DNA of 34,611 nucleotides from Prochlorococcus sp. AG-412-C21 (GTDB lineage: Bacteria; Cyanobacteriota; Cyanobacteriia; PCC-6307; Cyanobiaceae): NCBI GenBank assembly GCA_003214975.1, contig QCKZ01000014.1, positions 1 to 34,611 on the forward strand. The letters are read 5' to 3'. How positions within the stretch are numbered: the first letter of the stretch is position 1; each line of letters opens with the position of its first letter. This document shows positions 30,482 to 34,611 of the stretch, one piece after another. Position numbers and translations under genes: made by a program. The notes below the pieces were generated by a model. That model did not search any database. It was not told where the DNA came from and saw only the letters and a list, made by a program, of their open reading frames with translations.

Positions 30482-31540
30482 TCAAAAAGAGTTAGTACGA
30501 ACTTTAAATTTCCATACATTTACTACACCTTTTGCGTTAACTGCAGCTAGTGCACAATCATCAGGTCTCCACGAAAGTGCACCCACTAAATCGCCCGCGA
30601 ATGCTGCCCCAACTGGGTCACCATTGCCATCATCTTTTAGGAAACTTGCGACAACAGAACCATCTCTAGATCCTGAGGCTACAAGCATGCCTTTATTTGA
30701 AAAAGCTAGGCTAGAAATAGGCTCGGTATGGTGCAATAGCTCTCCCGGCATAGTTCCCTCTGGACCATCACCTATAAAGCTCCATACTGTGATTCTCTCG
30801 CTACCACTAGTTGCTAATAATTTTCCACTATCATCAAAGGAAAGATGACTAGGTTTTCCTGGGTATCCAGTCATTTCAGCATCCATTCCAGTTGATCTTC
30901 TCCAAAAATGAACTGAATTGTCTTGACTCCCGCAGGCGACTATATCACCATCAGGACTTAATTCCATTGAGACTAATGATCCTTGCCACTCGAGTTTTTG
31001 ATTCGTTTTATTATTTACTATGTCAAAGAATGTTACTCTCCCGTAGCAGGCTGTAGCTAGCTCATTATTATTTGACCATTTTATTGCACTTACTGTGCTT
31101 GGATGATCATCTGAGACCCATTTTTCTTCACCAATTTCATTGAAAACATATACTTTTTTTGAAGAAGCTACTGCAAGAAATAAGCCATCATTTGACCACT
31201 TAAGATGCTCTACCCAAGCCTTGCCAAGATCGAGAGTTTTAATTACTTTACCTTCGTGGCAATTATATATTTGAATATTCCCATCTTGACCGGAAGTTGC
31301 AAAAATCTCTCCTTCTGGATGAATGGACATTGCTAGTAGACCACCAGAGTGTGTATTTTCTTTTTTCCAAATAATTTTCCCAGTATCTCCTTCAAAGGCA
31401 AAAATACCTCCTGCTACATCCCCAACAATGAATAACTTTCCTTTAATAGCCCAACCACAAACTATTGCATAATCATTAACTTCAGCTGTCCATCCCTCAT
31501 GGAACATGCCTCTTGGGCTAAATGATTCTATATCAGGCAT
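30482..31540 (-). CDS. WD40 repeat protein
   Basis: Repeated [LM]xxSxxGxxxAxxSxDxxxxxW-type blades (LAMSIHPEGEIFATSGQDGNIQIYN, MELSPDGDIVACGSQDNSVHFWR, LAFSNKGMLVASGSRDGSV). Confidence 0.92.
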   Translation of the reverse strand: MPDIESFSPRGMFHEGWTAEVNDYAIVCGWAIKGKLFIVGDVAGGIFAFEGDTGKIIWKKENTHSGGLLAMSIHPEGEIFATSGQDGNIQIYNCHEGKVIKTLDLGKAWVEHLKWSNDGLFLAVASSKKVYVFNEIGEEKWVSDDHPSTVSAIKWSNNNELATACYGRVTFFDIVNNKTNQKLEWQGSLVSMELSPDGDIVACGSQDNSVHFWRRSTGMDAEMTGYPGKPSHLSFDDSGKLLATSGSERITVWSFIGDGPEGTMPGELLHHTEPISSLAFSNKGMLVASGSRDGSVVASFLKDDGNGDPVGAAFAGDLVGALSWRPDDCALAAVNAKGVVNVWKFKVRTNSF

Positions 31541-32883
31541 TTTTCAAAACCTTCTCGCATCTCTTTCTCGTCCAAATTCCTACCTATAAAAACAAGTTGG
31601 TTCCTACGAGGTTCGTTACCCCATTCTTTATCAGGTTGCGCTGTAAATAGCATATGTACCCCTTGAAAAACTATTCTCTGTGGGTTTCCTGAGTAGCTAA
31701 TGAAACCTTTTGTTCTAAATATATCCACACCTTTTTCAGAAAGAAGTCTGCCCAGCCAAGTATTAAGTTTTTCTGGATCAACATCTCCAAATCGTTCAAT
31801 TGCAATTGACGTTACTTCATCATCGTGTTCGTGCTCAGCTTGCCAGAATCTTTCAGTATTAAATGGAATCTCTTTTGAATTATTTTCTTCACTTTTAATG
31901 ACTTTCATATTGAATTCTTCAGCAGTGTGCTGTGTAAACAAACCTATTTTTGTTGGCTTTTCTATGTTCAGGATGAAGGATTTATTCCCTTTATCCACCA
32001 ATTTGAGATTTATATGTTCTCCAAATGGGATAGTATTTCCAGGATCTAAACTGTTAGTTTTTTCTGCATAAAGTCTTACGGAAGATTCTGCACCATCTTT
32101 AAGTTCTTCTTCACTCTCACCTTGGTTAACGAGAGCTACTAGTGACATTTCTGGATCGGGTCCTTCTTCTAGCATTAATTCATATTTACCTGCAGCAAGA
32201 TCGTAAACACCTGTCCACTCAAAAGGATATTCTGGTTCAAGAAATGTTGGTCTGCGTTTAAGGATCTGATCGAGATCAAATGCACTTAGATTTAGGACTG
32301 TTTCGATGGGTACTTGAGCATTCTCGGCTCGAATGATTCGAGTCATTCTGTTCATATCTCTCAATCTCGATTCAAGAGTATCTAGATCATCATCAGAGAC
32401 TAAATCAGTTTTGTTTAGGACAAGAACATCTGCAAATGCAACTTGTTCTGAACTTTCATCACTTCTTCCTAATTGCTGATCAATATGTGCCGCATCAACT
32501 AAAGTCACAATTCCATCGAGAGTAAATTCGGAACTAATTTCTTCATCCATGAAAAAAGTCTGAGCAACTGGGCCTGGATCTGCTAATCCTGTCGTTTCTA
32601 CTAAAACATAGTCAAACTTATCTCTTCTTTTCATAAGGTTGCCAAGGACTCTTATTAAATCCCCGCGAACAGTACAACAAATGCACCCATTTGACATCTC
32701 AAATACTTCTTCGTCGGCATTAATTACGAGCCCTTGATCTATACCTACTTCACCGTATTCATTTTCAATTACGGCAATTCTTTTACCATGCTCTTCACTT
32801 AATATTCTATTAAGAAGAGTCGTTTTCCCTGAGCCAAGGAATCCAGTGAGGATAGTTACGGGAACTTTATCTTTGATGCTCAT
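31528..32883 (-). CDS. COG0523 (CobW-type) GTPase with a large inserted domain, putative zinc metallochaperone
   Basis: TGFLGSGKTTLLNRIL, NEYGEVGIDQGLV, CICC motif SNGCICCTVRGDL, NKTD, C-terminal VFQGVHMLFTAQPDKEW...LVFIGRNLD; extra ~130 aa between residues ~219 and 350. Confidence 0.95.
   Translation of the reverse strand: MSIKDKVPVTILTGFLGSGKTTLLNRILSEEHGKRIAVIENEYGEVGIDQGLVINADEEVFEMSNGCICCTVRGDLIRVLGNLMKRRDKFDYVLVETTGLADPGPVAQTFFMDEEISSEFTLDGIVTLVDAAHIDQQLGRSDESSEQVAFADVLVLNKTDLVSDDDLDTLESRLRDMNRMTRIIRAENAQVPIETVLNLSAFDLDQILKRRPTFLEPEYPFEWTGVYDLAAGKYELMLEEGPDPEMSLVALVNQGESEEELKDGAESSVRLYAEKTNSLDPGNTIPFGEHINLKLVDKGNKSFILNIEKPTKIGLFTQHTAEEFNMKVIKSEENNSKEIPFNTERFWQAEHEHDDEVTSIAIERFGDVDPEKLNTWLGRLLSEKGVDIFRTKGFISYSGNPQRIVFQGVHMLFTAQPDKEWGNEPRRNQLVFIGRNLDEKEMREGFEKCLI
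31894..32226 (-). other. inserted FEWxG...FTQHxxxEF domain of the COG0523 protein
   Basis: PFEWTGVYDLAAGKYELMLEEGPDPEMSLVAL...SFILNIEKPTKIGLFTQHTAEEFNMKVIK; matches a segment of the adjacent ZnuA. Confidence 0.75.
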
Positions 32884-32961
32884 TTACTGATTTTTACTAA
32901 ATAAATAATAGTCTAATAATAGTAATAATAAGAAATGAAAACCGTTTTTATTTAGAAAAAT

Positions 32962-34563
32962 TTAATCTGAAAGTTTGTACCATTCAGACTCAAGATTGGA
33001 GCCAGATTCTTTATCACAGCTTCCACCTAATGAATCAACAATTGTACAAGTGTTGTGAACCGCTACTGAAACCGTATTCCCGTCCATCATCAATCCATCA
33101 ACGAATATTTGATTAGAAGCTAAAGGTACTGAACTTTGTCTACTTAAGTTTCTTAATAACTTAGATGCTGGAATTTGTTCAGGAAATATTGCCTGAACTT
33201 TCTCTTCATCTAACATTTTTAAAGTCGAACTTATGTTTTCTGGCCTTAAGCTTGAGGAGTCTCCAAGAAAGTCAAGTAAACTAATAGTTTCAAAACCAAA
33301 TGCATCACCGTAGTATTCAAGTGCTTTGTGTTTAGAGACAATTACTTTGTTTTCCTCAGGAATAGAGCTTACTTGTTCGACGATCCAACTATCTAAGCCT
33401 TCTAGAAGTGAATCAGCTTTTTCGAATCTTTCATTAATTAGTTTTCTGTCCCCTCTATTAAAAACTGAAATATCTTTTTTTAAGTTTTTACTTATAACAT
33501 CTCCCATTTTTATGATGTTATGTGGATCATGCCATACATGTGGATCTAGACCTCCATGGTCATGATGGTGATGATGCCCCTCGCCTTCGTCTGGTACTTG
33601 TGCTATCGGTTCGACATCACTATTTGAAACGTCTTTAAAAAAGTGTTGAGTTGCTTCAAACTCAAAAGGCATGTGTTCAGTAAAAAATATATATTGACCA
33701 TCTTCTTTGATTTCCACGTTAAAAACAGTGCTTTCTTTTCTTTGATCAAAGTTAAGAATAAAAGCTTTATTACTTTCGATCAGTGTACCATTATTTTTTC
33801 TGCTTATTGAGTCTTTAGATCCTAATAATTCTTTAGCTAAATCTTCAGAACCTTCTATATCATTAGATTTGAGAATCACCATCTTCATTGCAGGATCTGC
33901 ATATTCGCCATCAACTTTTTCAAATGACCATTTGTAGGAACCCTTAGAAAGCTGGAATTTACCTGCCCATTCGAAATCACCTTCAGCGTGATCATCATGT
34001 CCACCATGGTCTGAGTGATCATCGTGACCTCCATGATCAGAATGATCATCTACCTTAGCTGAATGTTCAGCATGATCATCATGTCCATCATGGTCTGAGT
34101 GATCATCGTGACCTCCATGATCAGAATGATCATCTACCTTAGCTGAATGTTCAGCATGATCATCATGTCCATCATGGTCTGAGTGATCATCTACGTCTAT
34201 TGCACTAACACCTACAACAACAGTATTCTTTTTACTTTCCCAATTTCTCATACTTGGAGTCATTTCTTTACCAAGAGTGAATACTTTGTCTGCGCTATTT
34301 AATAATTGAGCTTGTCTTGGATTTATCTTTAAGTCATGAACATCCTGTTTCCTATCTACTAAGCATGTAACTTCGTCAGAAGGTAATGCAATTGATTTAA
34401 CTAAATCACAAACTAGTGGTTCAACTGCTACATATGACTTTCCTTTGGCCATGACATCCTGCCCAAAACCAGAAAATATTATCGTTCCTGCGATAAGGGA
34501 ATTTTTAATAATTGACTTACTTGAAACTGTTTTATTTGTTAAAAGTCTTTTAAAAATTGACAT
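32962..34563 (-). CDS. znuA: zinc ABC transporter substrate-binding protein with His/Asp-rich loop and inserted domain
   Basis: SYVAVEPLVCDLVKSIAL, QDVHDLKINPRQAQLL, LDPHVWHDPHNIIKMGD, VIVSKHKALEYYGDAFGFETISLL, SLRPENIS; His-rich repeats, His run HHHHHDH. Confidence 0.93.
   Translation of the reverse strand: MSIFKRLLTNKTVSSKSIIKNSLIAGTIIFSGFGQDVMAKGKSYVAVEPLVCDLVKSIALPSDEVTCLVDRKQDVHDLKINPRQAQLLNSADKVFTLGKEMTPSMRNWESKKNTVVVGVSAIDVDDHSDHDGHDDHAEHSAKVDDHSDHGGHDDHSDHDGHDDHAEHSAKVDDHSDHGGHDDHSDHGGHDDHAEGDFEWAGKFQLSKGSYKWSFEKVDGEYADPAMKMVILKSNDIEGSEDLAKELLGSKDSISRKNNGTLIESNKAFILNFDQRKESTVFNVEIKEDGQYIFFTEHMPFEFEATQHFFKDVSNSDVEPIAQVPDEGEGHHHHHDHGGLDPHVWHDPHNIIKMGDVISKNLKKDISVFNRGDRKLINERFEKADSLLEGLDSWIVEQVSSIPEENKVIVSKHKALEYYGDAFGFETISLLDFLGDSSSLRPENISSTLKMLDEEKVQAIFPEQIPASKLLRNLSRQSSVPLASNQIFVDGLMMDGNTVSVAVHNTCTIVDSLGGSCDKESGSNLESEWYKLSD
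33628..33978 (-). other. inserted FEWxG...FTEHxxxEF domain of ZnuA
   Basis: DFEWAGKFQLSKGSYKWSFEKVDGEYADPAMKMVIL...ESTVFNVEIKEDGQYIFFTEHMPFEFEATQHFFK. Confidence 0.75.
33983..34194 (-). repeat. 84-bp tandem repeat (about 2.5 copies) encoding His/Asp-rich 28 aa units
   Basis: TCAGC(G/A)TGATCATCATGTCCA(C/T)CATGG... copies start at 33983, 34067 and 34151 (exact 84-nt spacing); encodes DDHSDHDGHDDHAEHSAKVDDHSDHGGH. Confidence 0.95.
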
Positions 34564-34587
34564 AAATAATTATTAAATACTTAAAAA

Positions 34588-34602
34588 TGATAATCATTTT
34601 CA
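34588..34602. promoter_or_regulatory. putative Zur (Fur-family) box upstream of znuA
   Basis: 7-1-7 palindrome TGATAAT-C-ATTTTCA, one mismatch from perfect symmetry, 24 bp upstream of the znuA start. Confidence 0.7.
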
Positions 34603-34611
34603 TTTCGCCTG

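Follow-up and report, generated by a model that had tools for sequence, protein, structure and literature searches.

A domain shared by ZnuA and the adjacent COG0523 GTPase

The window, the whole stretch of 34,611 nucleotides analysed from contig QCKZ01000014.1 of Prochlorococcus sp. AG-412-C21, carries on its reverse strand two intact, neighbouring open reading frames (ORFs) encoding a ZnuA-type zinc-binding protein of an ATP-binding cassette (ABC) importer (positions 32962-34563, 533 residues) and a COG0523 GTPase of the CobW/ZNG1 type (31528-32883, 451 residues). ZnuA matches its Pfam family (PF01297; E = 2.6e-37, in two pieces) with 129.2 bits against a curated cut-off of 29, which places it in the ZnuA family; its N-terminus is signal-peptide-like, and the canonical His motifs DVHDLK, DPHVWHDP and SKHK are recognised by eye. 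The GTPase combines cobW (E = 2.2e-61) and CobW_C (E = 2.8e-25) domains with a CxCC motif (CICC at residue 67) and is thus of the COG0523/CobW type. Judged by sequence, residues 220-330 of the GTPase (31894-32226, reverse strand), located between its GTPase and CobW_C domains, and residues 196-308 of ZnuA (33640-33978, reverse strand) are copies of one homologous domain of ~110 residues, as supported by sequence and profile comparison and by modelling. The interval 31894-33978, marked in an initial annotation made from the sequence alone, starts and ends exactly at the far ends of the two copies.

Both segments are foreign to the canonical folds of their hosts, as that annotation had proposed. 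Pfam divides the GTPase into cobW (residues 8-184) and CobW_C (358-450), leaving the insert in between, and ZnuA into two pieces; the segment is cleanly absent, at the same place, from orthologous ZnuA of other Prochlorococcus genomes (L034, L037), and close relatives of the GTPase also lack it. The further proposal that the two inserts are the same domain is borne out by blastp (E = 3e-5 between full proteins and 3e-8 between inserts), by phmmer (E = 8.6e-8) and by a Smith-Waterman score of 84, compared with 29.1 ± 5.0 on average and at most 53 over 2000 shuffles (z ~11). Profile-profile comparison of small alignments of each copy with hhalign, a check suggested with the annotation, returned a probability of 96.7 and E = 4e-10. 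The pairwise identity of just ~29% could suggest that two unrelated inserts have converged or resemble each other by chance, but this explanation is hardly credible in view of the profile E-value, the near-invariant residues common to 78 copies, the same predicted topology in both copies and the existence of intermediates, such as a ZnuA copy from Desulfobacteraceae with a GTPase-type GPDPSM motif. At the sequence level, chance resemblance is ruled out by the shuffles, BLAST and hhalign.

Predicted fold and database comparisons

AlphaFold2 models, built with related sequences, present each copy as one confident single domain, with predicted local distance difference test (pLDDT) values of 93.5 for the GTPase copy and 88.1 for the ZnuA copy. 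The predicted order of elements is the same in both, comprising three strands, a helix and then further strands, and the models indicate that the shared domain folds independently as an α/β-sandwich. The significant profile-profile score and the like folds together leave the proposal of a shared domain standing.

No Pfam-A or NCBIfam family was found for the insert, the best sub-threshold Pfam matches being scattered (E of at least 0.007), and the Pfam family of ZinT matched neither the full GTPase and ZnuA nor 44 domain copies. A sequence search of the PDB matched no chain (E of at least 0.36 for query A5), and Foldseek against the PDB returned nothing significant, with best E-values of 0.031 and 0.019 and template-modelling (TM) scores of ~0.3-0.4. 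The Foldseek matches, assorted β-sandwich and jelly-roll structures, were not significant and were not taken to indicate kinship. A phage origin was also rejected, as none of 26 pattern matches in viral contigs was a relative. Searches of the databases and the literature turned up neither the domain nor any account of its being shared by receptor and chaperone or moving from scaffold to scaffold, although earlier mention in the literature on marine-cyanobacterial zinc genes is possible.

Distribution and carriers of the domain

A scan of ~85,000 species genomes yielded 478 loci, 80 of which were analysed, and profile searches of whole genomes were added. This genome-wide search, also suggested initially, recovered GTPases and ZnuA proteins. 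In the combined scan and profile results, GTPase carriers belong to Cyanobacteriota, Acidobacteriota, Verrucomicrobiota, Actinomycetota, Chloroflexota, Planctomycetota, Spirochaetota, Pseudomonadota, Gemmatimonadota, Myxococcota, Bdellovibrionota, Kiritimatiellota, SAR324 and others, ~15 phyla altogether. ZnuA copies were identified in Prochlorococcus and its family, Verrucomicrobia, Kiritimatiellae, SAR324, Hahella, a Desulfobacteraceae metagenome-assembled genome (MAG) and haloarchaea. The domain is widespread but sparse: by profile it occurs in 31 of 386 cyanobacterial genomes, being absent from most other cyanobacteria sampled, in 2 of 398 Pseudomonadota, 26 of 289 genomes of the Verrucomicrobiota sample, 6 of 49 SAR324, 21 of 281 Chloroflexota, 16 of 247 Acidobacteriota and 1 of 247 genomes of the phylum of the Desulfobacteraceae MAG. 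Within the cyanobacterial sample, 22 genomes contain both copies, nine the GTPase copy alone and none the ZnuA copy alone; outside cyanobacteria, two genomes that may be incomplete (G419, G1138) have a ZnuA copy without a domain-bearing GTPase. Some ZnuA proteins, including ones from SAR324 and Prochlorococcus, contain two domain copies in tandem (L016, L078, L119, L148). An 873-residue ORF with two domains (L075:4727-7345, G254) crosses a run of N, is likely an assembly artefact and was not counted as tandem.

The notion that carriers are limited to ZnuA and GTPases was overturned by searches of plasmid records. Free-standing haloarchaeal carriers, located at L273:4875-5426 (Natrinema versiforme plasmid pNVE414), L272:4869-5495 and L275:4872-5432, are proteins of 183-208 residues with a twin-arginine/lipobox-like start, the motif HEHEHDDPP, the domain and a His-containing tail, which is His-rich in two of them. 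The Natrinema gene comes immediately downstream of ureC, a gene for a gamma subunit, ureG, ureD, ureE and ureF, which suggests a link to nickel. A plasmid of Alicyclobacillus curvatus encodes a 303-residue membrane protein (L271:4788-5699) in which the domain is inserted between HRHGQSHDHE and EHDH, with genes for a metal-sensitive repressor and for cation efflux adjoining; its membrane part matched no Pfam or NCBIfam family. Its identification as a nickel/cobalt transporter was dropped, since both databases gave nothing and its H-x4-D-H motif, although reminiscent of such transporters, is no more than a lead. The Natrinema and Alicyclobacillus neighbourhoods, and the location of haloarchaeal znu operons near a cobalt-factor methyltransferase, would fit a general transition-metal module whose metal varies by carrier, being nickel or cobalt in some and zinc in znu operons. 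Such variation, which overlaps with the zinc-binding role favoured below, is a tentative possibility, against which stands the location of the great majority of copies in COG0523/WD40 or znuABC loci, several of which include a zur-like gene.

A candidate metal site

Four polar positions, Glu, Asp, His and Glu, are conserved at 100, 97, 100 and 100%, respectively, over 78 copies. In full, E222, W223, D243, H319, E323 and F324 of the GTPase correspond to E198, W199, D223, H297, E301 and F302 of ZnuA, with 97-100% conservation in the same copies. The pattern used for the genome scan itself demanded H..EF; among copies retrieved by profile search alone, H-x3-E-F is present in 94 of 97, and the other three are explained by two truncated ORFs and a start wrongly placed within a domain. 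In 21 verrucomicrobial copies the Asp loop has given way to one that is rich in His and often contains Cys, and H-x3-E-F is found in none of the 21. The joint replacement of the Asp loop and loss of H-x3-E-F points to the two forming one site. The near-invariant Glu, Asp and His-x3-Glu suggest a putative metal site, with E222, D243, H319 and E323 (GTPase numbering) as candidate ligands. The verrucomicrobial GTPase copies L186-L210 contain, where counted, 9-21 His residues in loops grown within the domain.

His-rich context of the insertion sites

The domain of ZnuA is invariably located within the His-rich loop. The window copy is flanked by His/Asp-rich sequence on both sides, with a His/Asp-rich tract preceding it (residues 125-195; 33979-34191, reverse strand) and the His-rich patch EGHHHHHDHGG past it (residues 328-338; 33550-33582, reverse strand). 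Domain-free ZnuA orthologs keep the His-rich loop, which is long in G324. In GTPases the domain occupies the junction preceding CobW_C, where distant COG0523 proteins of the same tree (L030-L033) have long His-rich stretches; in the nearest domain-free relatives (L025-L029) the sequence PEFLNE runs straight into the AHEHD motif. According to Haas et al. (PMC2770081), a His-rich region, frequently close to the C-terminus, is present in approximately 40% of COG0523 proteins. A His-rich context accompanies the domain in each carrier type, namely the ZnuA loop, the GTPase linker, the haloarchaeal lipoproteins (HEHEHDD plus tails) and the Alicyclobacillus membrane protein. The initial annotation noted a His-rich patch after each copy; AEHEHDDE of the GTPase belongs to the GTPase itself and not to the domain, because domain-free relatives have AHEHD[ED].

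The zinc locus and its Zur-type box

The window contig stops 48 bases before the znuA start, in a source genome (G000) of 1.25 Mb that is 74% complete. Upstream of znuA is a Zur-type palindrome, ATGAAAATGATTATCATTTT (34584-34603, reverse strand), for which 0.06 occurrences are expected by chance in the window; its 15-base core (7-1-7) also precedes znuA in most Prochlorococcus relatives checked. The contig ends before znuB, znuC and zur, and the linkage of znuA to these genes was observed in relatives (L038, L034, L131 and others). Two complete relatives (L038, L034) display znuB (-), zur (+) and znuC (-), followed by znuA, the GTPase gene and a WD40 gene in one direction. In Synechococcus WH8102, Zur represses znuA (synw0971) and the two genes that follow it, to which no function had yet been assigned (PMC9337993) and which are presumably the GTPase and WD40 genes.

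In the window, the gene of the WD40 β-propeller protein (30482-31540, reverse strand; Pfam WD40, E = 1e-28) overlaps the end of the GTPase gene by 13 bases, and its product has no obvious signal peptide. A WD40 gene lies beside the GTPase gene in 65 of the 80 related loci, often with overlapping genes; the WD40 protein and these GTPases are tightly coupled across phyla. Haas et al. 2009 (PMC2770081) described the clustering of COG0523 genes of subfamily 5 with those of WD40 proteins and ZnuABC, some of the former being regulated by Zur. The window-type GTPase displays this WD40 and znuABC clustering and was assigned to the subfamily by gene context.

A typical interaction scaffold encoded at most of these loci, as well as the conserved W, F and G beside the polar residues, would suit a docking or oligomerisation module that binds a partner or itself, with the conserved acid and His residues being structural. 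This interpretation is quite improbable. The two carriers reside in different compartments, for which reason the initial annotation also regarded docking as less obvious, and have no obvious partner in common; furthermore, docking leaves unexplained the exclusive placement in His-rich segments and the verrucomicrobial replacement by His loops. The difference in compartments and the tracking of His-rich segments by the domain thus make docking less likely.

Domain-bearing znuA and GTPase genes are also found apart. In G324, a domain-free His-rich ZnuA lies beside the GTPase (L076, G324:C1:350000-360000; L047), and a separate domain-bearing znuA is located elsewhere, with its own Zur-type box and unrelated flanking genes, an arrangement that is possibly an island-borne swap. 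In G379, the domain-bearing znuA (L077:2498-5955) is adjoined by a truncated 128-residue GTPase start and another COG0523 gene, the full domain-bearing GTPase being encoded elsewhere in the genome. The source genome of the window encodes a second ABC metal importer on contig 13 (L036:6343-8903), in which another ZnuA-type protein is accompanied by its own ATPase and permease genes. This binding protein contains neither the shared domain nor a His-rich loop, and the importer is probably a manganese-type system.

Evolution and mobility of the domain

A domain tree that comprises 116 columns and leaves many forks open unites the 15 bacterial ZnuA copies in a single clade (support 99/93). With added carriers, in a run with rough bootstraps, the haloarchaeal stand-alone copies group with those of ZnuA (95/83), separately from the GTPase copies. 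In the tree of ZnuA scaffolds, built after removal of the domain and His tracts, carriers are not one clade and seven changes are observed, at least five of which are forced by well-supported branches. A single, vertically inherited ZnuA insertion was rejected by the approximately unbiased (AU) test (p ~2e-69). The Hahella carrier has as its sister (100/100) a paralog from its own genome that lacks the domain; its domain copy is 79% identical to that of SAR324 (L214), compared with 24% and 19% for the lobes. The scaffold tree and these identities indicate that the domain repeatedly moved into the His-rich loops of different ZnuA scaffolds. On the GTPase tree, where L213 is labelled domain-free though it is a carrier (motif YAQHTAEEF), carriers come close to forming a single clade, which looks like one old insertion. 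The ZnuA copy of the Desulfobacteraceae MAG (L095), with its GPDPSM motif, is the deepest branch among bacterial ZnuA copies and possibly an intermediate. Thus, the sharing within one apparent operon noted initially holds at this locus, but it is far older and wider than the operon, with movement between ZnuA scaffolds.

Proposed function

The shared domain is probably a portable module that binds a transition metal, here most likely zinc, and works with His-rich loops. A metal-handling role, raised in the initial annotation as a common metal-sensing or metal-handling module, is well supported, indirectly, because of the znuABC-zur-COG0523 locus, the Zur-type box, the His-rich placement, the conserved E/D/H/E and the verrucomicrobial His loops; the sharing itself is proven. 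Under low zinc, Zur would release the znuA-GTPase-WD40 operon. In the periplasm, the module in the middle of the His-rich loop of ZnuA would, together with the His tracts, gather zinc and hold it near the high-affinity cleft. In the cytoplasm, the module of the GTPase would gather incoming zinc and relay it to the CxCC site, to be delivered in a GTP-dependent manner. Most likely, module and host His-rich tract together increase the metal available locally, outside to the cleft of ZnuA and inside to the CxCC site. We infer both that the metal is zinc and that it is handed on rather than only sensed or stored. We also lean towards an undescribed family of mobile metal-binding domains in bacteria and haloarchaea, whose members occupy His-rich segments in several metal proteins that are unrelated and lie on either side of the membrane. 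It is reasonably likely, moreover, that this family is the folded counterpart of the disordered His-rich zinc loop and provides matched metal-loading modules for importer and chaperone.

Several observations weigh against this proposal. Several Prochlorococcus genomes lack the ZnuA copy, and in G321, which belongs to the same family, the domain is present in the GTPase but missing from the adjacent ZnuA; the module is thus not essential for ZnuA. The stand-alone copy beside the nickel-urease genes means that zinc may not be the sole metal. In addition, the invariance of H-x3-E-F in the 80 scan loci is partly due to the search pattern, the verrucomicrobial loop replacement may be a single event, and the predicted domain models contain no metal.

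The main rival is a regulatory metal switch, a zinc-binding sensor that gates its host by closing ZnuA or holding the GTPase inactive at plentiful zinc. It agrees with a well-folded single-domain design, rather than a flexible His tract alone, and with the regulatory roles suggested for the His-rich loop of ZnuA (Wei et al. 2007, cited in PMC10957091). However, the tandem ZnuA copies of SAR324 and Prochlorococcus and the loops with 9-21 His residues look more like capacity, and such a switch is considered unlikely.

Comparison with known systems

The ZnuA of the window resembles cluster A-I proteins (E. coli and Synechocystis ZnuA) in its Pfam fold, three His motifs, His-rich loop and association with znuB, znuC and zur. 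In contrast to known ZnuA, in which this loop is only disordered, it contains a folded domain of ~110 residues in the loop. AdcA, the Gram-positive ZnuA-ZinT fusion, also joins an importer zinc-binding protein to an extra metal-binding domain. ZinT of AdcA forms a domain of its own at the C-terminus and has a dedicated Pfam family, while the window ZnuA carries a different domain, inserted mid-protein, for which the ZinT search was negative. Both carriers belong to families already described, and AdcA-ZinT offers a precedent for an additional metal domain on a zinc receptor; the domain itself had no counterpart in the databases and literature searched.

The window GTPase resembles COG0523 subfamily 5 (PMC2770081) in its cobW and CobW_C domains, CxCC motif, WD40/znuABC linkage and Zur-type regulation, and differs in having an extra domain where other COG0523 proteins have a His stretch. 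This subfamily includes most eukaryotic homologs (Haas et al. 2009), and the passages of that paper considered here describe His stretches but no such domain. AztC/AztD and ZrgA/PA4063 (PMC6689063, PMC9820375) are similar in providing accessory periplasmic zinc handling near an importer, with His-rich loops that add sites. AztD is a periplasmic protein in its own right, ZrgA is a ferredoxin-like binding protein and, unlike the window domain, neither also occurs in a cytoplasmic GTPase. The Anabaena exoprotein ZepA (PMC10957091) is Zur-regulated, has znuA and COG0523 genes in its context and contains a β-sandwich domain, but is a PEP-CTERM exoprotein.

The finding bears on the passage of zinc from importer to intracellular chaperone, in an organism that lives at very low zinc, and on the role of the His-rich loops of ZnuA and COG0523 proteins. 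A domain common to a periplasmic receptor and a cytoplasmic GTPase, and absent from natural ZnuA orthologs, offers a ready-made comparison. If metal binding proves true, it would constitute a new domain family and would aid the annotation of metal proteins in ~15 bacterial phyla and in haloarchaea.

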